DNA of 41,188 nt from positions 1-41,188 of the IMG/VR virus record IMGVR_UViG_3300042383_000142; one strand, written 5' to 3'. A program made the translations under genes and the position numbers. This document shows, piece by piece, positions 4,366 through 36,790 of the stretch (position 1 is the first letter of the stretch; the number at the start of each line of letters is the position of its first letter). This stretch comes from a virus. Below the pieces are notes generated by a model. That model was not told the DNA's origin. It was given only the letters and a program-made list of their open reading frames with translations, and made no database searches.

Positions 4366-5153
4366 TGTACCCGTTCAGGTATGTCTGAGACATCCATAAA
4401 TTCGGGATTGAACTGCAACCAAAAAGCCGTATCCCCAGTTGGATCTGCCTTACCATAGCGGTTCTTAACGGGTGCTACCGCGAGGTAGCCTGGTGCGTTA
4501 GTTCCCACTGTACAGATAAGTGCAGGCAACTGTGCCACCATACCCTGCAAAGCAGAGCGAGGTTGGCATGGGTTCCCCGTATACGACTCTTTGGTATGAT
4601 GCAGTATCAATACCGCAGCGTTGGTATCTCTTGCAAGATACTTCAACTCTTTTATTGTCGAACGCATGTTCGCAAACTCTTCTCCCCCATCGTTGGAAAT
4701 ATCCATAAGGTTATCAACAACTATGAGAGTCGGCGAACAGCCCCACAACTCCTCGAATGCTTCTACCTCTTGATCGAGATCTGCCAGCGTTGGTGCTGAC
4801 TCAAACGACCAGAAGATATGCCCCGAGGAATCATTAATTGTTTTACGACTACCATCAATATCTTCGTTGAGCATGTGCTCAGCATCAGACTGGGACTTGC
4901 TAGTAATCATAGATAGCAGACGCATAGCCATTGTGTGAGCGTTTGTGTCGGCTGATACATACAAGGTAGGAACTTTAGCCCGTAGCGCAATAGCCAAGGC
5001 CAAGGTCGACTTACCAGCACCAGGAGTGCCAGCAATCATCGAGACTTCGGATCGGCGAATAACTACTTTGTTGGCATCGAACGTGCGGAACACTGATGGT
5101 AATGGTTCACCACCGATGTCCTTTCCACCAACTGCACGGGCTAGGGTTCTCAT
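4362..5153 (-). CDS. DnaB-like/RecA-fold replicative helicase ATPase
   Basis: The 263-residue protein is a RecA-fold ATPase. Walker A is GTPGAGKST (42-50) and Walker B is TLIVVDN (D147). The sensor-like HH pair is in VLILHHTKES (H185, H186), and a glutamine-containing motif follows (ALQGMVAQLP). This order matches the C-terminal ATPase domain of DnaB-type helicases; the N-terminal primase-binding domain is missing. It could be a stripped-down replicative helicase or a RadA/Sak4-like recombinase. Placement beside the split primase supports a helicase. The start codon has no strong ribosome binding site and lies 3 bases from the upstream stop codon, so coupling is likely. Confidence 0.78.
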   Translation of the reverse strand: MRTLARAVGGKDIGGEPLPSVFRTFDANKVVIRRSEVSMIAGTPGAGKSTLALAIALRAKVPTLYVSADTNAHTMAMRLLSMITSKSQSDAEHMLNEDIDGSRKTINDSSGHIFWSFESAPTLADLDQEVEAFEELWGCSPTLIVVDNLMDISNDGGEEFANMRSTIKELKYLARDTNAAVLILHHTKESYTGNPCQPRSALQGMVAQLPALICTVGTNAPGYLAVAPVKNRYGKADPTGDTAFWLQFNPEFMDVSDIPERVQ

Positions 5154-7049: not shown

Positions 7050-7087
7050 AAAAAGCCCCCCACCAGAGGTTAGTCTGATGAGGGGCT
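7050..7087 (-). terminator. Rho-independent terminator of the late operon
   Basis: On the minus strand the stem AGCCCC/GGGGCT encloses about 22 bases, with further pairing possible inside, and is followed by five T. It lies 22 bases past the stop codon of the last late gene (7109). The plus strand has no T run after the hairpin, so it works for leftward transcription. The stretch 6915-7049 holds a short TCAAC/GTTGA hairpin (6936-6950) and otherwise nothing I recognise. Confidence 0.7.
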
Positions 7088-24985: not shown

Positions 24986-27900
24986 TTATTCTCCTGACTT
25001 CTTCAAAAGATTTGCAAATACAGAGTAATACATGCGCGAGAATGCAGGGTTACGCATCATTAAGTCAGTACCTAATCTTTCTAGTTCTTCACGGTATTTA
25101 GTATTTAACCAGAATGAACTGCCTAGATCTGGTGTTGGAGTATTGCGATCATTCTGTAATGTTGTTATCTTGTCAATATATGATGCGTAAAACTCAGAAG
25201 CCTCTGCATACACAGGTGAATCTTTGAATGCTGGATTACTTAGAGCCTCACCAATTGCTGTGGCGCGCTTTTCTTGACGTCCTGTGATAATGGTTGATGC
25301 TGGCTTTCCGCCGTATAACTTATTAAGTTCAACAACCTTCTTGGTATACCAGATATCTGAGTAGCCATTTGCTGCTTGCTCTTCTGAAATCTGTGATAAT
25401 TCCATGTTATAGACTAGATCTTCGGATGCTGCTTCTAACTCTTCTCGAGATAGTTTCTCACGACGTGCGGTGGCTAACTGCCACTGGTAGTAAGACATAG
25501 CCGCTTCTCCACCAGGGAAGAAGTAAGGCACGATATCTGCATCACGTGTAGCATATTTAACTACAAGATTTGGATTCTTATTCAAGAATGACCAAGCATC
25601 TTCTGTACCTGTAACAGATTTAGTAGAACCACTGATTACAACGAGTAAGTTCTGCCATCCATAACGATCTGCAAACTGTTTTCTTGCCTCGTCAAAGTTA
25701 CCAGGGTTTGCCTTTGAGATCTCGTCCCAGTTCTTATACAACTGTGTGGATGAGATAAAGTTGAATTTACCTTCATCTGTTTTGATCTTGCTAAAGATTT
25801 CAGTAGATGGAGTAGCAGGTGCTATGCTCTGGAAGAAAGCACCCATCAAACCTGTCCAACGACCCATGCTTTGAGCGTCATTAAACAACTCATTACGTGC
25901 TGTATCGTTGGCAAATGGGTTATCGCCATACTTGCCAGTAGATGCTAAGTATCCAGCCCAGTCTTTTGTCTCACGTTCAACTAATGTAGAATCATTAATT
26001 GCTAGCAAGAATGTTTTATTAAGCCATGCTGGAAGTATAAGTCCACTGATAGCGCCTGTTCCTGATGCACCTGGCTCACCAAATGGGAAGATAATATTAC
26101 GCATAAAGTCCCATTGAGGACCAAATGCGTGTGACTTACCACTTGCCATATATGCAATCTGTGCTACAGGTCCAAGTCCTGGCATACCAGGGTTAACTGA
26201 ACCAAATGCAAGGTTAAGAGACTGTACAGGTGCTGTAAGTTGTAGTGCATCCTTAGCACCAGTATCACCGATACCGATACCAGCAAAAGCGCTAAACATA
26301 TCACCAGCAATAGGATAACGGAAGCGTTGCTTGCCAAAATCATCCTTGTAGAAGAAACCTTGTCCTTCTTCGTACTTGGTGTTGGTCAAATCGTAGATAG
26401 CAGATGATCCAGGCTGTAGCAAAGCATTGTATGCTTTACCAAACTTGTATAACTGGCGTGGATTCTGTGCTGTTAACTTAGTCCAAGCCTTGATAGTATT
26501 GAAGTGTGCCTGGATAAATGGGAACAAAAGACGTAATCTGTTAGCAGAATCAAGTTGACGAGATGCATCATAGAACAGATCTCTTGTATATTGACCAGCC
26601 ATACGTGCTGCTGTGACATGCACATCATCGTATGACATCAATTGTGGAATACTAGGGTTTTTCTGACGCCTTCTGATCTCTTTATTGATAACACGTAGCG
26701 CTTCATGGCGCTTTCCTACTGGAATACGCTTTCCTGCAGGTGTACGAACAGTAATGCCACTAAGTGTCTTACCAGCCTGCTTTTGTAGGCGTAATAGGTC
26801 ATCTAGACCCATAGAAGGTGCATAACGGCCAATATGATCCCAGTATGACATTCTAAACTCAGGACCATAGGCTGCAATGTTTTCAACCTTGGCTGATTGG
26901 GTAAAGAACCAGTCAACTGAATTCTTAAGGATAGATGGGTTTGCACTCATCCATGCCTTTGTATCAGAAAAGATAGCAACTGCGTCTGTCATCTCATCGC
27001 GTGGGAAAAGACGCTCTAGTTGTTCTCTGAATACCTTCTCAGCAGCGCGACCTTCTTCAATAGAAGCCGAGTTCTTAAAGCGTGGCATACGAATAACTTC
27101 GTCACCTGTTGCTGTTGGCACTTTTACAACACCATTAGCAAGTAATTCACGAATGTAAAGTCCGCGTTGTCCTGAACCCATCAATCCTTTGAGTGCTGTT
27201 TCGTAAGAACCAGTAGATGCTGGATCAAAGAGCCAGTTGCGAATACCATCTGCGTTTAAGTTAGCCTTGCTAAATGGCGCTTCTGGATCCTTTAGGAATA
27301 CACGAGCAAAATCTGATCCACCAGTTCCACGTTCACCCTTAGAGAATGATGCTTCTAGGATTTCCTTAAGCATATTTGTACGCTCTTGGCCATTAATTAA
27401 TACTGGTCGGTTATTGATTAGGTCATCAACCAACTTAGCCTGTAACTCTGGAGTATTTGCACGTGCCACAAGTGGCATCATGTCATCTAGGTTAAAACGA
27501 GCAAGTGTTGTAGCAAAGGCTGGATAGAAGTTTTCATCTGCATAGTCAACTACGCGATACCACTTACCAAGCAAACGTGTCTTTGCGTCAAGTGAACGCA
27601 TATCTCCCGCTGAAACCTTGCGACCCATAAATGCTAGATACTCATCCATTGCATCCGTAAGTAACTTAGCACCTTGTGGATCCTTGTATGAGTTACCAAG
27701 AATATCATCGCCATATTTTTCGAAGTGCGTAAGCAACTTCTGCATAGCATTACCTGATTGATCTGCATACATCATTGCAGCAAATCCAAGAGGATGTGAA
27801 AGAAGCGTCTCGTGACCTGATAGGAACATACGGAATTGCATCTCACCTACGTTACGAGTAACGTATGAGATACGGAATGCTAATTGAGCGGTTCTCCAGT

Positions 27901-30859
27901 GTTCACCAAATTCAGAAATGAACTGGTTGGCAGCGTTTCCGTTACCAACAACACGCTTGAGTTTATCGTAACGTGCAATAGCACGGTAGATTGGCTTTGT
28001 ATCTGGTAGGCGAATAACATCATCTACGAACTGGTGCAAATATACAGCACCATCAAGTGTTGCTTCCTCACCCTTACCAATCATAACGCCAACATGCTGT
28101 CCTTCTGGAAGGAGTGCGTTAGCATAAGCCTTGTGAAGAACCATTTCTTCGCCAGATAGTTTAAGTTCTCTTGCAAGGATTTCTTTAAGTTCTTTGCTTC
28201 CTGGTGCTACGCGCTCAACAATATCATCCTGTGCTGCTTTGATAGCATCATCAATAATCTTGGCTCGCGCAGCGTTAATACTGCCTCCGCTTTCTGCGGT
28301 TGCTGCAACAAGTTTGTTAACTACGTCGTCAATAACAGCCTGTCCAACTTTTGCCGTAGCCATCCATTCTGCAACACCTTTTGCAAGGCGATCTAGGTCG
28401 TTGAGTGGAAGCACCTTGGATCTTGAATACTGACGTGTAAGGAATGTTTCCATTTTCTCTACCATCATAAGAGCCTTGCCATTTGGAGGCATAATGCTCT
28501 TGATAACTGGAATGTTACCTTCTGCAACTGTCTGAGCACGAAGTGCTAAACTGCGAGCAATTCTTGGATCTGCTGTTGGAGACGCAAGTTGCCTACGTAG
28601 GATTGCTAATACCTCATCAGGTGTCTTAGCATCTGTAAGCATCTTAATGATATCCATATCCAACTTGTTGTTGAATAGACGAGATAACTTAGCAGCACTT
28701 GTTTCTTTAGCAACAATCTCTGCTACAACTGCAAAGCGCTTACCAAGTAAAAATTCATTTACTTTGCCTAGGTTTTCAGAGATAGGACCACCGATACGTT
28801 CGATTAGACCAGACTCTGCTGATAAAAGTTCCTGGAAGTAACGGTTTCTACCGATCTCTACTTCGATATCTAGTAATGCACCAAGACGACCATACTCAGG
28901 ATTGCTAATAATTTGTTTTAATAGTTCTGGGTCACGCTCAACGTATTGACGGATAGCGGTAATTTCTGCTGCCTTAGCATCAAGTGTATCTACATCACGT
29001 AACGCTGCATCACGGGCAACTCTAGCACGTTCTGCTGCTTGTTCTGCTGTGCGAATTGCAGTTGGAACATCAAGAACAGCCCCAGGAACACGACTGTCTG
29101 CAAGCAAATTGCTAATTGTAACTGACTTAGCAGCCAGTGCATCTAAACTTGTGATTGCAATTCCACCAGTTCTGCCATAAATGGCACGAACATTAGAAAA
29201 ACCATCTGCTTGCCAGATCTTCTTAACAGCATCTGTAGCCAAAGCCATAGCATGCTCGTTCTTTGTGACTGCAATCTTGCCTAGAAGTGTGGCAAGGTTC
29301 TCTGCAGAACCACCATTAAACATAAGATCATCAATGTATGCCTGAACATCTATTGTTTTAAGGGCTTCAATTGTTTCTTTAGGAAGATTAGGGTTGTTTT
29401 TAAGATTTTCAATTTCATCAAATAAACTTATACGACGAGCAACCTCTTCGGATACATCTGCCTTGAGAAACGTTGAGTAATCTGTAGCAAGATCAACAAT
29501 CTTTAGATCGGCTTTTGCTGCACTTACTACGAATTCTTCTAATCCCTGAGTAGCAACTGAAATCTTTCCTGCTTCTGGGAGTTCATCTAGCATAAATGCG
29601 CCAGGAAAAGCCTTAGTTGTATTAGAGAAGTCACCAGAAAGTTGTGATAGTTGGCGAACAACATCATCTTGCTTTCCAGCAATGATGGTATCACCCAAGA
29701 ATCTAGCAATCAGTGGATCTGCAAGTTCAGGAAGTTCCTTAGATGTTGCTTCTAATACTGATGCGTAGTAACTTTCATTCTGCAACTTCTGTGCTTCTTT
29801 GAAAGAACGTTCTGCTTGAAGAAGTTCTTCATCTCTTAACATGTAGGTGTTATTAATGTCGCGCCGGATTGTTTCAAGTTCCGTCTCACGCGCCTTCATG
29901 AGTAGTTTTTCGTCATTAGTAGGGTCTAAGATTTCCTTTGCCCTAGCAATATCATCTTGAAGTTTTTGTTCTGCAACGGCTACTGCTTTAACTTCTGCAA
30001 GTTGTTTTCCACCCTTGAGTGCAACTGCACCCTTTGCAACGGCTCCTGTACCAAAACTGAGGTAGGTAAGTGGATCTGCTGCTACGTTAATTACAGCATC
30101 AATGACACCTGACGTGGTTTTATAAAAATCACTATTTGGATCAACACCGATTGTAGATAGGCTTCCACGACCAATTGTAAATGACTTACCATTTACGCGA
30201 CCAAAAGCCTGCATAGCCTTGGCTTGGTTTTTGCCCACTCGTGAGTTTGGATCAAGGAAGAATCCAGAACCAGTGCTAACTCCGCCACCATCTGCAACGT
30301 CACGAAGCAGCGCTCCGAGTTGAGTTGTTTTTCCAGTCAACAAATTTGTTGGATTCAGGTTTTGAATTAAACGTCCGCCAGATCCTTCTTCGCCTTGAAT
30401 GGCTCCGTAGATATCTCTAAAAACTGTTGTTGTGTAATCGTATGGGCTACGTGCTGTAGCAAAACCTACGCGTACAATGCTCTTGAGCAAACCATATGCG
30501 CCGTCTTTAACTGTAGACAGTAAGTTCTTATCTTTAGCAGCCAATGAAGGAAGATCTTTAACCATTGTTGCTGCACGAATAGCCTGCTGTACGCCATCCA
30601 TTGATGTAACTTTATCAATACCAGGAGTATCTGCATTTGCTCCAGCCTTAACTAGACCGATAACAACTTCCTTTGAGAGGAAGGGATACTTAGATATGAT
30701 AGAGTTGAAGTTAGAAAATTCAGAACCGTCAAACGTAGCCATCTGCTGATTTATGATACGCGTAAGCATGTCACTGTTTTTGTTAGCAAAAATGGACGCG
30801 TTCTTCTTGCTTTGAGTAGAAGTCGGCTCGTATATTCCTAGATCAATTTCTGAGGCCAC
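24986..30859 (-). CDS. Giant virion protein (1957 residues), probably internal or ejected
   Basis: This is by far the longest gene. It begins at GTG directly after the stop of the upstream gene. The protein is mostly helical. Residues about 285-365 form a charged coiled-coil-like stretch (EQKLQDDIARAKEILDPTND, ETELETIRRDINNTYMLRDE), and another is near 610-640. Later parts are richer in aromatic and apolar residues (LAFRISYVTRNVGEMQFRMF, RLLFPFIQAHFNTIKAWTKL, FPFGEPGASGTGAISGLILP), which might contact membranes. I see no polymerase, lysozyme or protease motif. In short-tailed phages, large internal proteins are injected with DNA to build a trans-envelope channel; that is the most likely role. 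It takes the place a tape measure would have in a long-tailed phage. Confidence 0.65.
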   Translation of the reverse strand: MASEIDLGIYEPTSTQSKKNASIFANKNSDMLTRIINQQMATFDGSEFSNFNSIISKYPFLSKEVVIGLVKAGANADTPGIDKVTSMDGVQQAIRAATMVKDLPSLAAKDKNLLSTVKDGAYGLLKSIVRVGFATARSPYDYTTTVFRDIYGAIQGEEGSGGRLIQNLNPTNLLTGKTTQLGALLRDVADGGGVSTGSGFFLDPNSRVGKNQAKAMQAFGRVNGKSFTIGRGSLSTIGVDPNSDFYKTTSGVIDAVINVAADPLTYLSFGTGAVAKGAVALKGGKQLAEVKAVAVAEQKLQDDIARAKEILDPTNDEKLLMKARETELETIRRDINNTYMLRDEELLQAERSFKEAQKLQNESYYASVLEATSKELPELADPLIARFLGDTIIAGKQDDVVRQLSQLSGDFSNTTKAFPGAFMLDELPEAGKISVATQGLEEFVVSAAKADLKIVDLATDYSTFLKADVSEEVARRISLFDEIENLKNNPNLPKETIEALKTIDVQAYIDDLMFNGGSAENLATLLGKIAVTKNEHAMALATDAVKKIWQADGFSNVRAIYGRTGGIAITSLDALAAKSVTISNLLADSRVPGAVLDVPTAIRTAEQAAERARVARDAALRDVDTLDAKAAEITAIRQYVERDPELLKQIISNPEYGRLGALLDIEVEIGRNRYFQELLSAESGLIERIGGPISENLGKVNEFLLGKRFAVVAEIVAKETSAAKLSRLFNNKLDMDIIKMLTDAKTPDEVLAILRRQLASPTADPRIARSLALRAQTVAEGNIPVIKSIMPPNGKALMMVEKMETFLTRQYSRSKVLPLNDLDRLAKGVAEWMATAKVGQAVIDDVVNKLVAATAESGGSINAARAKIIDDAIKAAQDDIVERVAPGSKELKEILARELKLSGEEMVLHKAYANALLPEGQHVGVMIGKGEEATLDGAVYLHQFVDDVIRLPDTKPIYRAIARYDKLKRVVGNGNAANQFISEFGEHWRTAQLAFRISYVTRNVGEMQFRMFLSGHETLLSHPLGFAAMMYADQSGNAMQKLLTHFEKYGDDILGNSYKDPQGAKLLTDAMDEYLAFMGRKVSAGDMRSLDAKTRLLGKWYRVVDYADENFYPAFATTLARFNLDDMMPLVARANTPELQAKLVDDLINNRPVLINGQERTNMLKEILEASFSKGERGTGGSDFARVFLKDPEAPFSKANLNADGIRNWLFDPASTGSYETALKGLMGSGQRGLYIRELLANGVVKVPTATGDEVIRMPRFKNSASIEEGRAAEKVFREQLERLFPRDEMTDAVAIFSDTKAWMSANPSILKNSVDWFFTQSAKVENIAAYGPEFRMSYWDHIGRYAPSMGLDDLLRLQKQAGKTLSGITVRTPAGKRIPVGKRHEALRVINKEIRRRQKNPSIPQLMSYDDVHVTAARMAGQYTRDLFYDASRQLDSANRLRLLFPFIQAHFNTIKAWTKLTAQNPRQLYKFGKAYNALLQPGSSAIYDLTNTKYEEGQGFFYKDDFGKQRFRYPIAGDMFSAFAGIGIGDTGAKDALQLTAPVQSLNLAFGSVNPGMPGLGPVAQIAYMASGKSHAFGPQWDFMRNIIFPFGEPGASGTGAISGLILPAWLNKTFLLAINDSTLVERETKDWAGYLASTGKYGDNPFANDTARNELFNDAQSMGRWTGLMGAFFQSIAPATPSTEIFSKIKTDEGKFNFISSTQLYKNWDEISKANPGNFDEARKQFADRYGWQNLLVVISGSTKSVTGTEDAWSFLNKNPNLVVKYATRDADIVPYFFPGGEAAMSYYQWQLATARREKLSREELEAASEDLVYNMELSQISEEQAANGYSDIWYTKKVVELNKLYGGKPASTIITGRQEKRATAIGEALSNPAFKDSPVYAEASEFYASYIDKITTLQNDRNTPTPDLGSSFWLNTKYREELERLGTDLMMRNPAFSRMYYSVFANLLKKSGE

Positions 30860-33291: not shown

Positions 33292-35166
33292 TTATTCCTG
33301 TTCCTCACCAAACTCATAGTCATTGACATTGAGTACATAGCGTTCTTGTTGTTGTCTACGAGTTGCCCACTTGTTGGGTATGTGGCTCTGATTGGTTCTT
33401 CCGATTGAGATAACTTCTTTGGCGCGTAGTTCACAGAACCAGAGCGCCATTACACAGTCGGTCTTGCCTTTAGTATTAGGCTCCCAGGTTATTAATTGCT
33501 GGATCAGAGCCTTAATGCCCTCCGAACCTTCCACTGCTGGAAGTTCCATGAGGTTGTCGTTATTAAATGTTGTGCCACGCATAGTCCCAAAGAGACCTGA
33601 CATGGCTGCTACACCGAACTGTGTATCCCATTTGTTCTTGCCAGTGAACTGACTCGAGAAGCGAACTCCTGTAGAGGCTAGGTACTGACGCAGATCATCA
33701 TCTAAAGCGTATGCTTTCTGATGAGCGTTGGTTTCAATTCTTAATTCTTGTGGTCTGTACTTCTCCACCCAGTCCTGAATTAACTTCTGGATCTTCTGAG
33801 GAGTAGGATCAAACATATTTTCGACATCAAGGACGTACCTTTTGCGACTATAGCGATCTACTGTGATAACCACTGCTGCTGTATTACCAGTCATGGCAGG
33901 GTCTAGACCCATGATGGTGTACCAAGAGCCCTTTTCAGAAGGATGTCCAGCGCTACCAGCCTTTAGAGGGCCACGCTTTCGCATCCTGTTGATCGAACCT
34001 TGTACACAGACAGGGGCAAATATTGAGTCTTCTTGTACGTCTTGCTGCTGATATACCAGCGCCCAGGCACTAGGACTGACTTCACTACGTCTGCGGAACA
34101 ATGCGCCGCCGTCCCACTTGGGGTAAAGGCCGTCTTCATCTGGAACAATATCTTCATCTGAGCCTTCCCATGGGATATGTGCCTTAGGCCACAGAGTAAC
34201 CCAGTTCTCTGGCTTATCTGCAAACTCAAGTACTGCTGGCATTGAAAGGTAGGTGAACGGTGACTTGCCACCTGTCCAGTGTTCTGCGTTTCTGATCTCT
34301 CGGTAGAGGTCATTGGCAGCAATACGTGTGCCTACGATGAGCAACTTACCGTTATCACCCAGACGGGTGACTACATCTCGCTGGAGCCAGAGGAGTTGCT
34401 TCTCCCACTCATGCGCGTTTGAAGTCGTAACAACGTCGTCCAGGATGATGAGGTTGGAACGGGCGCCAGTAATCTGGCCACCAATTCCGAGCGCCTGCAC
34501 CGTCGGATCCTTTTCGGTAGAATCACGAGAAAGGTAAATGCGATCAGCCTTCCAAGTATCCGCATCTTCTTTCCAGCCTCCTGCAGACCCATAGACTGCC
34601 TGTAGTTTCGACCAGCGCTCGTGGCTTAGCCGTTGCTTGATCGAGTAAAGATATTCCTTAGCGCGTTCCTGAGTCTTGGAAACGATGGTGATCTTAATAT
34701 TAGGATCCATGGCAATTCGGTAGACACAGTAGTTGACCGTGATGACCGTAGACTTGGCATGCTCTGGTGGGACGTTGATAAGCAGACGCTTCTTAGATGC
34801 AGGGTCATAGACCATCGACGGGTGAATGTAGGAAGGTTCTCTTCCCTCAAGCACGTCAATCCAGGACCTGTGATGTGCGAAGATCGGCGAGTCAAGAAAC
34901 TCACGGCTGAACTCCTCAAAGCCAATTTTGAACTTGGCATCCCCTGAAACTATACTTAAAGTCTTTTCGCCCTCTTCTCGGGCTTTCTCAAGTTCCTTCA
35001 TAAAGGCGGCGTCTTTGCGCCAGTCCTTCATGACATCTGGCTTACGTTCAGCCCTTGCTAATGCATCTGTAATGTCTAGCCCTTGGCGGACAAAGTCTAA
35101 AACCTTTGCCTTTGCCTCTCGCAGGGCAACCACATTGTGGTGCTCTTTACCGCCTTTGGCAGCCAT
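33292..35166 (-). CDS. Terminase large subunit with N-terminal helix-turn-helix
   Basis: The 624-residue protein has the packaging ATPase motifs: a Walker A variant in LINVPPEHAKST (129-140), Walker B in NLIILDDVV (238-246) and a coupling motif in KLLIVGTRIAANDL. The C-terminal RNase-H-like nuclease starts at IMGLDPAMTGNTAAVVITVD and continues through LRIETNAHQKAYALDDDLRQ and later acidic residues. Residues about 20-65 (VLDFVRQGLDITDALARAER, MKDWRKDAAFMKELEKA) look like the DNA-binding helix-turn-helix usually carried by the small subunit. No separate small subunit gene is seen. GAGGAG precedes the ATG. It is the first gene of the long late operon. Confidence 0.9.
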   Translation of the reverse strand: MAAKGGKEHHNVVALREAKAKVLDFVRQGLDITDALARAERKPDVMKDWRKDAAFMKELEKAREEGEKTLSIVSGDAKFKIGFEEFSREFLDSPIFAHHRSWIDVLEGREPSYIHPSMVYDPASKKRLLINVPPEHAKSTVITVNYCVYRIAMDPNIKITIVSKTQERAKEYLYSIKQRLSHERWSKLQAVYGSAGGWKEDADTWKADRIYLSRDSTEKDPTVQALGIGGQITGARSNLIILDDVVTTSNAHEWEKQLLWLQRDVVTRLGDNGKLLIVGTRIAANDLYREIRNAEHWTGGKSPFTYLSMPAVLEFADKPENWVTLWPKAHIPWEGSDEDIVPDEDGLYPKWDGGALFRRRSEVSPSAWALVYQQQDVQEDSIFAPVCVQGSINRMRKRGPLKAGSAGHPSEKGSWYTIMGLDPAMTGNTAAVVITVDRYSRKRYVLDVENMFDPTPQKIQKLIQDWVEKYRPQELRIETNAHQKAYALDDDLRQYLASTGVRFSSQFTGKNKWDTQFGVAAMSGLFGTMRGTTFNNDNLMELPAVEGSEGIKALIQQLITWEPNTKGKTDCVMALWFCELRAKEVISIGRTNQSHIPNKWATRRQQQERYVLNVNDYEFGEEQE

Positions 35167-35214
35167 GATAACTCCTCTATTAAACCCCTTGTATAAAACT
35201 CCCCTTTATCGCTC

Positions 35215-35335
35215 GGCTCGCACAGGCGAGCCTCGCTAACCCCTGGGTTCGTGGCTGGCATTAAGCCAGCCTACACTATCGTTTCGGCTGTCTCAGCCAC
35301 CCACTCACAGTAGATAGACTCACTCTGTAGGAGTC
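35215..35335 (-). promoter_or_regulatory. Leader of the late operon with four stem-loops
   Basis: Upstream of the terminase ATG lie GGCTCGC/GCGAGCC (35215-35232, 4-base loop), GGCTGGC/GCCAGCC (35253-35271, 5-base loop), GGCTG/CAGCC (35286-35298, 3-base loop) and GACTC/GAGTC (35317-35335). The first three have centres spaced 38 and 30 bases apart. Just upstream, TATATA (35345-35350) may be the -10 of the late promoter. If transcription starts there, the stem-loops form the 5' leader, possibly for anti-termination or message stability. Confidence 0.5.
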
Positions 35336-35480
35336 GTTCGTCTATATATACTAACCCGTTCAAAAAGGAAAAACGAACGGTGCAATGTAAGAAATGTGAT
35401 GTACTTCACGTATTTATATGTATAAAACGGACATTACGGGGCATCCCGTAAATACTGAAAAAATAATTTAATGCGATAGT
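35336..35480. promoter_or_regulatory. AT-rich stretch with inverted repeats
   Basis: CGTTCGT (35336-35342) and ACGAACG (35373-35379) form a wide inverted repeat around TATATATA. The part from 35381 to 35480 is very AT-rich apart from TTACGGG/CCCGTAA (35434-35451), a perfect seven-pair stem-loop. An AT-rich block beside repeats and hairpins is typical of DNA unwinding zones at origins and of divergent promoter regions. No gene is seen. Confidence 0.4.
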
Positions 35481-35487
35481 GTATATC

Positions 35488-35627
35488 CGCGGCGAAGCCG
35501 CGTTAAAGCACTGGGGTCGCGCTAGCGACACAGTGCGCTAGCCACGCGTGGCGATTGAACGCGTGCCCCGCGGCGAGCGGCGGAGTCCGAGGCAGAGCCT
35601 CGGCCCGTTAATCGAACGGATGTTCGA
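35488..35627. repeat. Dense cluster of perfect stem-loops
   Basis: Within 140 bases lie five strong inverted repeats. They are CGCGGC/GCCGCG (35488-35502), GCACTG-GTCGC/GCGAC-CAGTGC (35508-35536, interrupted 11-pair stem), the 12-base palindrome GCCACGCGTGGC (35541-35552), CCGAGGC/GCCTCGG (35587-35603) and TCGAAC/GTTCGA (35612-35627). The last competes with CCGTT/AACGG (35605-35619). This spacing of a hairpin every 20-35 bases is not seen elsewhere in the window. It could be an origin, a packaging site or a structured RNA. Confidence 0.6.
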
Positions 35628-35644
35628 GTAATAAACGGGGGCGC

Positions 35645-35655
35645 GTTTGTGTTGG
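35645..35655 (+). promoter_or_regulatory. Partial copy of the GTTTGTGTTGG motif
   Basis: The 11-base core GTTTGTGTTGG occurs here, upstream of the rightward gene at 35942. The conserved downstream half (CAT-N-GTCG-N5-ATCT) of the other copies is not intact; only CTATCTGGTCG follows. It is probably a degenerate or functionally distinct copy. Confidence 0.4.
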
Positions 35656-35667
35656 TGGACTATCTGG

Positions 35668-35847
35668 TCGAGGGGTCGAGGGCTTGGGCTGGCTGGCTGG
35701 CTCGGGCTTCGAGGGTCTGGCCTTTGGCCTTCGAGGGGATGAGATCGAGGGCAAGGGGTGAGGGCTGACTCGAGGGATGGCGCTCGATGGTGGATGCAGG
35801 ATTATCCTGCACCAGATCGAGGGGCAGAAGGTGGCCAAGATCGAGGG
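35668..35847 (+). repeat. Eight direct repeats of TCGAGGG, iteron-like
   Basis: TCGAGGG starts at 35668, 35676, 35709, 35731, 35745, 35770, 35817 and 35841, all in the same direction. One further copy is at 36807, and a palindromic form, CCCTCGAGGG, lies at 36234 inside the following gene. Spacing is irregular (8 to 47 bases). Direct repeats beside an AT-rich block and stem-loops resemble iteron origins. The sequence between repeats is G-rich and without a convincing gene. Confidence 0.6.
35795..35811. repeat. 17-bp palindrome, copy 1
   Basis: TGCAGGATTATCCTGCA, with eight-base arms around one central base. This copy lies inside the TCGAGGG repeat zone, 130 bases before the start of the gene at 35942. 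It is the most distant from a start codon of the first five copies. Confidence 0.8.
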
Positions 35848-35941
35848 CTGAGGGTTGTTGCAATAAGGGGCGAGCCATGAGACGATTCTCCTATCAAATC
35901 GGCAACAAGGTCGAGGCGATCAACTCAAGGAGAAAAAAATC

Positions 35942-36601
35942 ATGGCAACAAAATCAGCAACAACAAGCAAGGCCAAAAAGTCAGCGTCTAGCACTGCTAT
36001 TTCATCACTCGATCAGATTTCGGATGTTCTCGTGGATGAGTTTTCGAAGGTGATCGGTGGCTCACTACCTGCCGAGTTCAAGGTGTTCGAGAAGGCGGTC
36101 AAGATGATCGAGGCGAAGAAAGTCGGATATCGTGGAATTGCAAAGTCAATCGAGAAGGCGAACGAGGTCGGCGCGCTTCCAACGATCAAGCCATCACACG
36201 CGCAGGATTTCGTCAGCGCGAGCAAGATCCGCACCCTCGAGGGTGGCGCGACTCAATCGCTCAAGGTTCTCCTTAATACGGCGATCCAAGCGCGAAAGTA
36301 TTTCAACGGCAAAGATGGCAAGATGAGCCTAGTCGAGGCGCTCGATTTCGTTCAGTCTTTCGATGATCTCAAGGAGTCAATCCCAAGCCAAGGCGAGCAG
36401 AAGGCCAAGCGCTCAGCGCGTACCGAGGGCGATAAGGTCGAGAAGGCTCCAAGCGTTGAGGCGCTCATTAAGGCGCTAGGCTCAGCGCTCAAGGCTAAGC
36501 CAGTTCTCAAGGGTCAAGCGCTCAAGGATGCCGAGGCCGTAGCGTTCCTACTGGCTCAAGCGCTCGAGCGCTCACGCGTCACTCTCAAGAAGGTCGCATA
36601 G
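35942..36601 (+). CDS. Basic helical protein of unknown function
   Basis: The 219-residue product begins with a Ser/Thr/Lys-rich stretch (ATKSATTSKAKKSASSTAIS) and is otherwise helical. It has IEAKKVGYRGIAKSIEKANE, LEGGATQSLKVLLNTAIQAR and a Lys/Ala-rich end (ALIKALGSALKAKPVLKGQA, LLAQALERSRVTLKKVA). AAGGAG lies nine bases before the ATG. Codon choice (many GCG, CTC and GAG codons) and GC content are visibly higher than in the late operon. I recognise no family. Being the first gene after the repeat cluster and ended by its own terminator, it is a candidate repeat-binding or nucleoid-type protein, but that is a guess. Confidence 0.65.
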   Translation: MATKSATTSKAKKSASSTAISSLDQISDVLVDEFSKVIGGSLPAEFKVFEKAVKMIEAKKVGYRGIAKSIEKANEVGALPTIKPSHAQDFVSASKIRTLEGGATQSLKVLLNTAIQARKYFNGKDGKMSLVEALDFVQSFDDLKESIPSQGEQKAKRSARTEGDKVEKAPSVEALIKALGSALKAKPVLKGQALKDAEAVAFLLAQALERSRVTLKKVA

Positions 36602-36708: not shown

Positions 36709-36748
36709 GTTTGTGTTGGACATAGGACACTCATAGTCGGTTCGATCT
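36709..36748 (+). promoter_or_regulatory. GTTTGTGTTGG motif, copy A
   Basis: GTTTGTGTTGG is followed after 12 bases by CTCAT, one base, GTCG, five bases and ATCT. The same framework is found in copies B (36751) and C (41117). The spacing between TTGG and GTCG (about 16 bases) and the GTC block recall ECF-sigma promoters. The conserved bases reach beyond a normal -10, so another protein site is possible. It lies upstream of the rightward operon starting at 36913. Confidence 0.55.
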
Positions 36749-36750
36749 TA

Positions 36751-36790
36751 GTTTGTGTTGGCGCTAGGCTACTCATGGTCGGCCTGATCT
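36751..36790 (+). promoter_or_regulatory. GTTTGTGTTGG motif, copy B
   Basis: A second 40-base copy begins two bases after copy A. It has the identical 11-base core, TAGGCTACTCAT in place of TAGGACACTCAT, GTCG, five bases and ATCT. The remaining gap to the gene at 36913 holds one TCGAGGG (36807) and palindrome copy 2, with no gene. Confidence 0.55.

Follow-up and report, generated by a model that had tools for sequence, protein, structure and literature searches.

A stem-loop ladder beside the terminase gene of an uncultured freshwater actinophage comprises a predicted terminal repeat, control DNA and a probable leader RNA with conserved pairing

The ladder of stem-loops upstream of the gene for the terminase large subunit (TerL) in this podovirus-like freshwater phage is real and conserved, and most of it can be explained. 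Read on the minus strand in the direction of TerL, it consists of three objects, namely a predicted direct terminal repeat (DTR), a stretch of control DNA and a structured leader RNA, and the leader RNA family is a new element. The pairing is conserved, the leader keeps a fixed place after a promoter motif, the left genome end is located and relatives carry DTRs; alongside these established points, we consider the reading of the whole zone as the DTR, control DNA and leader RNA of a podovirus-like actinophage reasonably probable. What began as a list of stem-loops becomes a map, open to testing, of the genome end that serves control and packaging in an abundant group of uncultured freshwater actinophages; it places the start of the virion DNA, the start of transcription of TerL and downstream genes, and the RNA that begins it.

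The window, that is, the whole stretch of DNA analysed, is a virus record of 41,188 bases in which leftward genes fill positions 40–35166 and rightward genes run from 35942 on. TerL (33292–35166, minus strand; phrog_38, E 9e-71; Pfam Terminase_6C) was the first gene of the leftward array in the ORF list, and this array also encodes a sigma factor, primase, RusA-like resolvase, helicase, endolysin, tail, capsid and portal. The first rightward gene (35942–36601, plus strand) encodes a protein of 219 aa without a family match, and amidoligase-like, glutamine-amidotransferase-like and WhiB proteins are among the rightward products. Thus the zone adjoins the terminase gene and lies where leftward and rightward genes diverge, as the earlier note had placed it. 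The nearest cultured relatives by TerL were the Planktophila phages LanE43AprE7 and F5 (PMC10202952), with TerL 58% and portal 56% identical, followed by Streptomyces Beephvirinae phages with about 45% and 46%, respectively; one of the latter, Abafar, is termed a good example for studying podoviruses in a passage of PMC11536984. Since whiB was present in the window and in 5/5 relatives tested, TerL identity and whiB together mark the phage as a whiB-bearing actinophage related to the Planktophila phages. Searching viral contigs with TerL yielded 80 loci, to which two more TerL searches added a few; two pattern scans gave further loci, many of them unrelated. One distant group (L077–L082) had a TerL of about 63%. 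For the host question, a TerL search of genome contigs returned no relative.

The TerL-proximal object is a structured 5' leader RNA (35167–35346, minus strand). Forty non-redundant leaders were aligned with MAFFT without structure, and RNAalifold then predicted three helices. In this alignment, 97.4% of 806 cells were paired, compared with 79.8% after shuffling (0/500), and pairing fell to 27–41% when the partner was slid by 1–3 columns. A lack of compensatory changes had been named in the earlier note as what would refute it; both sides had changed in 17 of the 21 leader pairs, and the pairing passed. Its suggestion of a structured RNA stands for one half of the zone, 35167–35346. Hairpin P1 (35313–35346, minus strand; stem-GARCG-loop-AGYGA-stem) lies where the transcript is predicted to begin and was paired in 99.5% of cells. 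P2 (35253–35271, minus strand; GGCTGGC/GCCAGCC) has seven pairs, five of them changed on both sides, with 97.1% of cells paired. P3 (35210–35238, minus strand; stem at 35215–35232) follows the anchored pattern TAGYGA-stem-GARCGA in 40/40 non-redundant leaders, which together carry 35 distinct stems whose first four pairs are Watson-Crick in every leader. In an anchored test of P3 made without structural alignment, the summed pairing was 4.93, and 5000 shuffles gave at most 3.96.

P1 and P3 proved to be one module in reversed arrangement, 5'-AGYGA-X / X'-GARCG, with tandem G-A pairs. All 80 cases from the two hairpins had these pairs in a YGAR/YGAR context, and such contexts favour sheared tandem G-A pairs. 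The pair adjoining the G-A module in P3 was C-G in 29 and T-A in 11 of the 40 leaders, while the matching R-Y pair of P1 was A-T in 27/40 and G-C in 13/40. The 400 stem positions of P1 and P3 comprised 396 Watson-Crick pairs, no G-U pair and 4 unpaired, and such an absence of G-U is unusual for an RNA helix. Counted pairwise over the 40 leaders, G-U pairs occurred in 4 cells of P2 and in 6 of P3 near the loop.

The covariance model R1 built on the leader matched 35352–35177, its sole match in the window, and 37/37 further loci, most of which had been picked by the promoter motif. It gave no convincing match in Streptomyces and Planktophila phages (best E 0.38). P1 and P3 were absent from the distant group (5/66 leaders), which has other hairpins there. 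At the gathering score, Rfam had no match in the window or in six relatives; in a 901-bp zone the best weak match was a CRISPR-repeat model below the cut-off. Literature searches, confined to open-licence PMC, yielded no paper that describes this leader or the terminal repeats of such phages.

Between leader and DTR lies the control DNA (35481–35344, minus strand), with a GTGA-N6-TCAC box (35396–35409; the only exact copy in the window) and the TerL-upstream motif. The latter, CGTTCG-N12-GAACGGGTTAGTATATAT (35344–35379, minus strand), is promoter-like, being an interrupted inverted repeat (CGTTCG..GAACG joined to GGGTTAGTATATAT) with an AT-rich box, and occurs once in the window. Distinct regions carrying GAACGGGTT..TATAT numbered 104, and TerL followed in every one, at a distance of 141–215 nt in 103 and of 641 nt in locus L061. 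In L061, genes for tRNA-Trp and tRNA-Asn lie between an intact leader and TerL (L061:1781–2412), indicating that the leader goes with the promoter and not with the TerL start codon. By eye, terminator-like stems were seen in this tRNA insert, which the pattern scan did not list; the window itself contains no tRNA or tmRNA. A GTGA-N6-TCAC box, which we take to resemble a CRP/GlxR site, lay no more than 140 nt from the promoter motif in 56/106 regions. At least one such box also lies between repeat and TerL in 4/5 Streptomyces phages, and in the Abafar record a box is inside the 396-bp repeat. A box upstream of the TerL promoter is common to the window and to Streptomyces and Planktophila phages. 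Given the predicted promoter, transcription of the leftward array would start at P1.

The leftward transcript would thus begin with the three-hairpin leader and its two copies of the tandem-G-A module, and we favour a leader that acts in cis on its own long transcript, either by modifying RNA polymerase or by protecting or pacing the long mRNA. Polymerase modification and mRNA protection or translation control were weighed about equally. It is possible, though not the likelier case, that the leader merely stabilises the mRNA or tunes TerL translation through a shielding hairpin at the 5' terminus and a spacer hairpin for the ribosome-binding site. P1 does begin at the expected transcription start, P3 is flanked by G-rich stretches, a Shine-Dalgarno-like GGAGG precedes the TerL ATG, and in Planktophila phage F5 the same promoter motif is followed by 5' hairpins that differ in sequence. 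However, a non-canonical module kept twice in 40/40 leaders goes beyond what a plain hairpin needs, and in L061 the tRNA genes lie between leader and TerL, which speaks against a function linked to the start codon of TerL. The Planktophila phages share whiB, the sigma factor and, in F5, GAACGGGTT..TATAT upstream of TerL with the window, whereas they have no CACAAAC block and the F5 control region has no P1/P3 module.

For cis action on polymerase, the nearest likeness is the put RNA of phage HK022, a case of RNA-only antitermination (PMC9378689). Put resembles the leader as a structured RNA with non-canonical pairs just past a phage promoter (predicted here) at the head of a long transcript; it differs in being about 70 nt with two stems and occurring twice, whereas the leader is about 180 nt with three stems, one copy and another sequence. 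Neither the put sequence nor its two-stem fold was found in the leader, with its three conserved helices, and put-like cis antitermination is a candidate role by analogy. A more specific proposal, put forward only tentatively and thought rather unlikely, is that the leader represents a new RNA class of actinobacterial phages which works in cis on RNA polymerase; its two AGYGA/GARCG tandem-G-A modules, transcribed directly behind the single leftward promoter, would confer resistance to terminators or pauses over the whole array without a phage protein. The leader need not prevent all termination, nor need the array be one transcript, because a strong terminator-like hairpin (14 pairs and a T run) lies at 7087–7054 on the minus strand within the leftward array. 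Represented by about a hundred natural variants, strongly covarying and absent from Rfam, the leader offers a case for studying RNA-only phage transcription control outside coliphages.

On the far side of the control DNA, 35482–35651 is probably the repeated end of the packaged DNA, a predicted DTR of 170 bp with variable hairpins, as suggested by contig ends, Streptomyces DTRs and edge motifs. Contig ends cluster immediately upstream of TerL: of 59 contigs with an available end, 41 ended in the leader or no further than 700 nt upstream of the promoter motif, a count made without the truncated-TerL contigs (L008, L051, L066, L069, L070, L072–L074 and L076), L049, whose sequence stops short of the contig end, and the distant group L077–L082. 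Among the 41, seven independent ends fell exactly at CACAAA with different sequence after each, indicating a fixed left genome end. The corresponding block, CAGATAGTCNNCC[AG]A|CACAAAC (35645–35666, minus strand), is cut between 35652 and 35651 and was found in most relatives. Metagenomic genomes of the group could be oriented and completed with its help.

The right cut is predicted at A|CACTATC (35475–35481, minus strand) from its likeness to A|CACAAAC. When tested jointly with the left block, CACTATC or TACTATC was present in 54/79 regions, the other 25 having no match to one edge motif by pattern; the interval between the motifs was 165–272 bp across the 54, with a widely divergent interior. 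Two length classes of this interval (170–179 and 229–242 bp) were dropped as a finding, their significance being lost on removal of related sequences (P 0.14). Hairpin H2 (35488–35502), next to the predicted cut, had a Watson-Crick stem of at least four pairs in 35/42 distinct segments, with a mean of 5.2 Watson-Crick pairs vs 3.3 in shuffles. Hairpin H1 (35508–35536), in which GTCGC/GCGAC lies inside GCACTG/CAGTGC, is joined to GACCCC, and a Watson-Crick stem of at least four pairs ending at GAC was found in 39/46 distinct segments. The distance from GACCC to the CACTATC cut, with H2 between them, was 36–38 nt in 42/42 distinct segments, only segments of 28–36 nt after GACCC having been taken. 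As for H2, an N4-type virion polymerase promoter (triloop hairpin) was considered and rejected, the 1957-aa protein of virion size having no polymerase match. This protein (24986–30859) had no Pfam match, a weak PHROG match of unknown function (E 7e-4) and, in the PDB, nothing better than E 0.19.

Streptomyces phages have DTRs at the same place, of 276 bp in Manuel, 254 in Dennebes, 274 in ZooBear and 263 in Stella (4/5 records), and of 396 bp in Abafar. Each of the first four repeats ends shortly past a GACCC..TTGTTAA-like element (Dennebes CACCCGGGGGTTGTTAA), which resembles GACCCCAG..TTAA in the window, and both cuts of these phages adjoin GTCCC. Because of this element in relatives and the near-fixed distance from GACCC to CACTATC, the right cut would fall at A|CACTATC, giving the 170-bp repeat; motif likeness and homology are what place this edge. 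The four Beephvirinae phages are like the window in their related TerL and portal, a repeat directly upstream of the TerL promoter with the GACCC..TTAA-like element near its right end, and GTGA-N6-TCAC with an AT-rich promoter between repeat and TerL. They differ in an unrelated repeat sequence, cuts before GTCCCC instead of CACAAAC, and no match to the leader model. The earlier suggestion of a packaging signal is supported for this half of the zone, 35482–35651, as a genome end. The window shows one copy of the DTR sequence and no end repeat. In one relative, contig G001, the two ends share 123 bp that fall within the predicted DTR; this was not accepted as proof, since the sharing could stem from overlap in assembly.

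A cos site cut with a stagger of 9 nt (GTCNNCC[AG]A), the hairpins beyond it serving as flanking recognition elements, is an unlikely alternative to the terminal repeat. Besides the seven contigs that begin at CACAAAC, two of the 41 begin at GTC, 9 nt earlier, which would also fit such a stagger, and the right-arm contig L130 ends 2 nt past CACAAAC. Against it stand the 254–276 bp DTRs of related Streptomyces phages in the same place and the counterpart here of their right-end element, GACCC..TTAA, at a near-fixed distance from CACTATC. With a terminal repeat, terminase would cut the concatemer before CACAAAC and, about 170 bp on, again before CACTATC; H1 and H2, spaced beside this second cut, may help to mark or process it, and the leftward-array promoter with its GTGA-N6-TCAC operator would come next. 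T7, which processes a terminal repeat, also has a podovirus-type genome, and its repeat is short, of a length similar to the one predicted here, with inverted repeats close to the genome end; unlike in T7, no T7-type RNA polymerase was found among the window proteins tested, and the likeness is by analogy only.

Within the DTR, the 12-base palindrome GCCACGCGTGGC (35541–35552) was shared by a few close relatives only, and in place of the variable hairpin at 35587–35603 the nearest relative, L068, has other hairpins. TCGAAC-N4-GTTCGA (35612–35627) forms a LexA-like box. GAAC-N4-GTTC was found in 13/59 DTR intervals, compared with 0.14 expected from mononucleotide shuffles. CGAAC-N4-GTTCG, which we take to be the LexA-type operator motif, occurs twice in the window (35612–35627 and 4659–4672) and looks like a putative operator of this type. 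The earlier note had proposed a switch between the TCGAAC/GTTCGA and CCGTT/AACGG stems; the CCGTT/AACGG stem can indeed form on paper here, yet in the listed relatives with CGAAC-N4-GTTCG the N4 letters differ, so that the CCGTT stem is not kept and the switch is not supported.

Two further CCAACACAAAC copies, oriented alike, lie in the right arm at 36709–36761 (minus strand), some 1.1 kb from its start. Direct repeats CC[AGC]ACACAAAC lie at 35645–35655 (the genome end), 36709–36719 and 36751–36761. Nearly all of 58 relatives have 1–4 extra copies in the right arm at 0.5–1.2 kb, all of them pointing the same way, and these repeats are possible packaging recognition boxes. An origin of replication, judged by iteron-like repeats, found no support and was set aside, the CC[AGC]ACACAAAC copies sitting at the cut and 0.5–1.2 kb into the right arm, outside the ladder.

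That P1–P3 act as DNA, in the form of cruciforms or single-strand hairpins in packaging or replication, for example, seems improbable. The lack of G-U among the 400 positions of P1 and P3 keeps a DNA-level role possible, the neighbouring DTR hairpins sit upstream of the promoter, and the phage encodes a RusA-like resolvase. However, the elements begin at the promoter motif and end near the TerL start in 103/104 regions, the tandem G-A is asymmetric between strands (T-C opposite), and P2 and the loop-near part of P3 do contain G-U.

For the ladder as a whole, the ten inverted repeats described earlier were each found where reported, starting at 35215, 35253, 35286, 35317, 35434, 35488, 35508, 35541, 35587 and 35612. 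Folding of the 481-base zone gave z = -6.16 (plus) and -7.67 (minus), and none of 100 dinucleotide-preserving shuffles was as low. With RNA parameters, z (plus/minus) was -4.4/-3.7 for the leader, -3.2/-4.2 for the predicted DTR (-4.7/-6.2 with DNA parameters) and just -2.3/-1.4 for the middle control region; 40 background windows of 170 nt had a mean z of -0.24 (sd 1.12, lowest -2.67). The folding signal is in the TerL-proximal and distal parts, with little in the middle. In the alignments, the stems at 35286, 35317 and 35434 were not kept in relatives, and the conserved pairing at 35317 is another one, TAGAC/GTCTA of P1. Although the zone exceeds its left surroundings in G+C, the idea that its hairpins are chance products of G+C-rich non-coding DNA has next to no chance of being right, contradicted as it is by the dinucleotide-preserving shuffles and compensatory changes; it is refuted for the leader and H1/H2, whereas single hairpins of the DTR might still have arisen by chance. 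TCGAGGG direct repeats, in five copies of a 15-mer family, occupy 35676–35855, between the genome-end block and the gene for the 219-aa protein.
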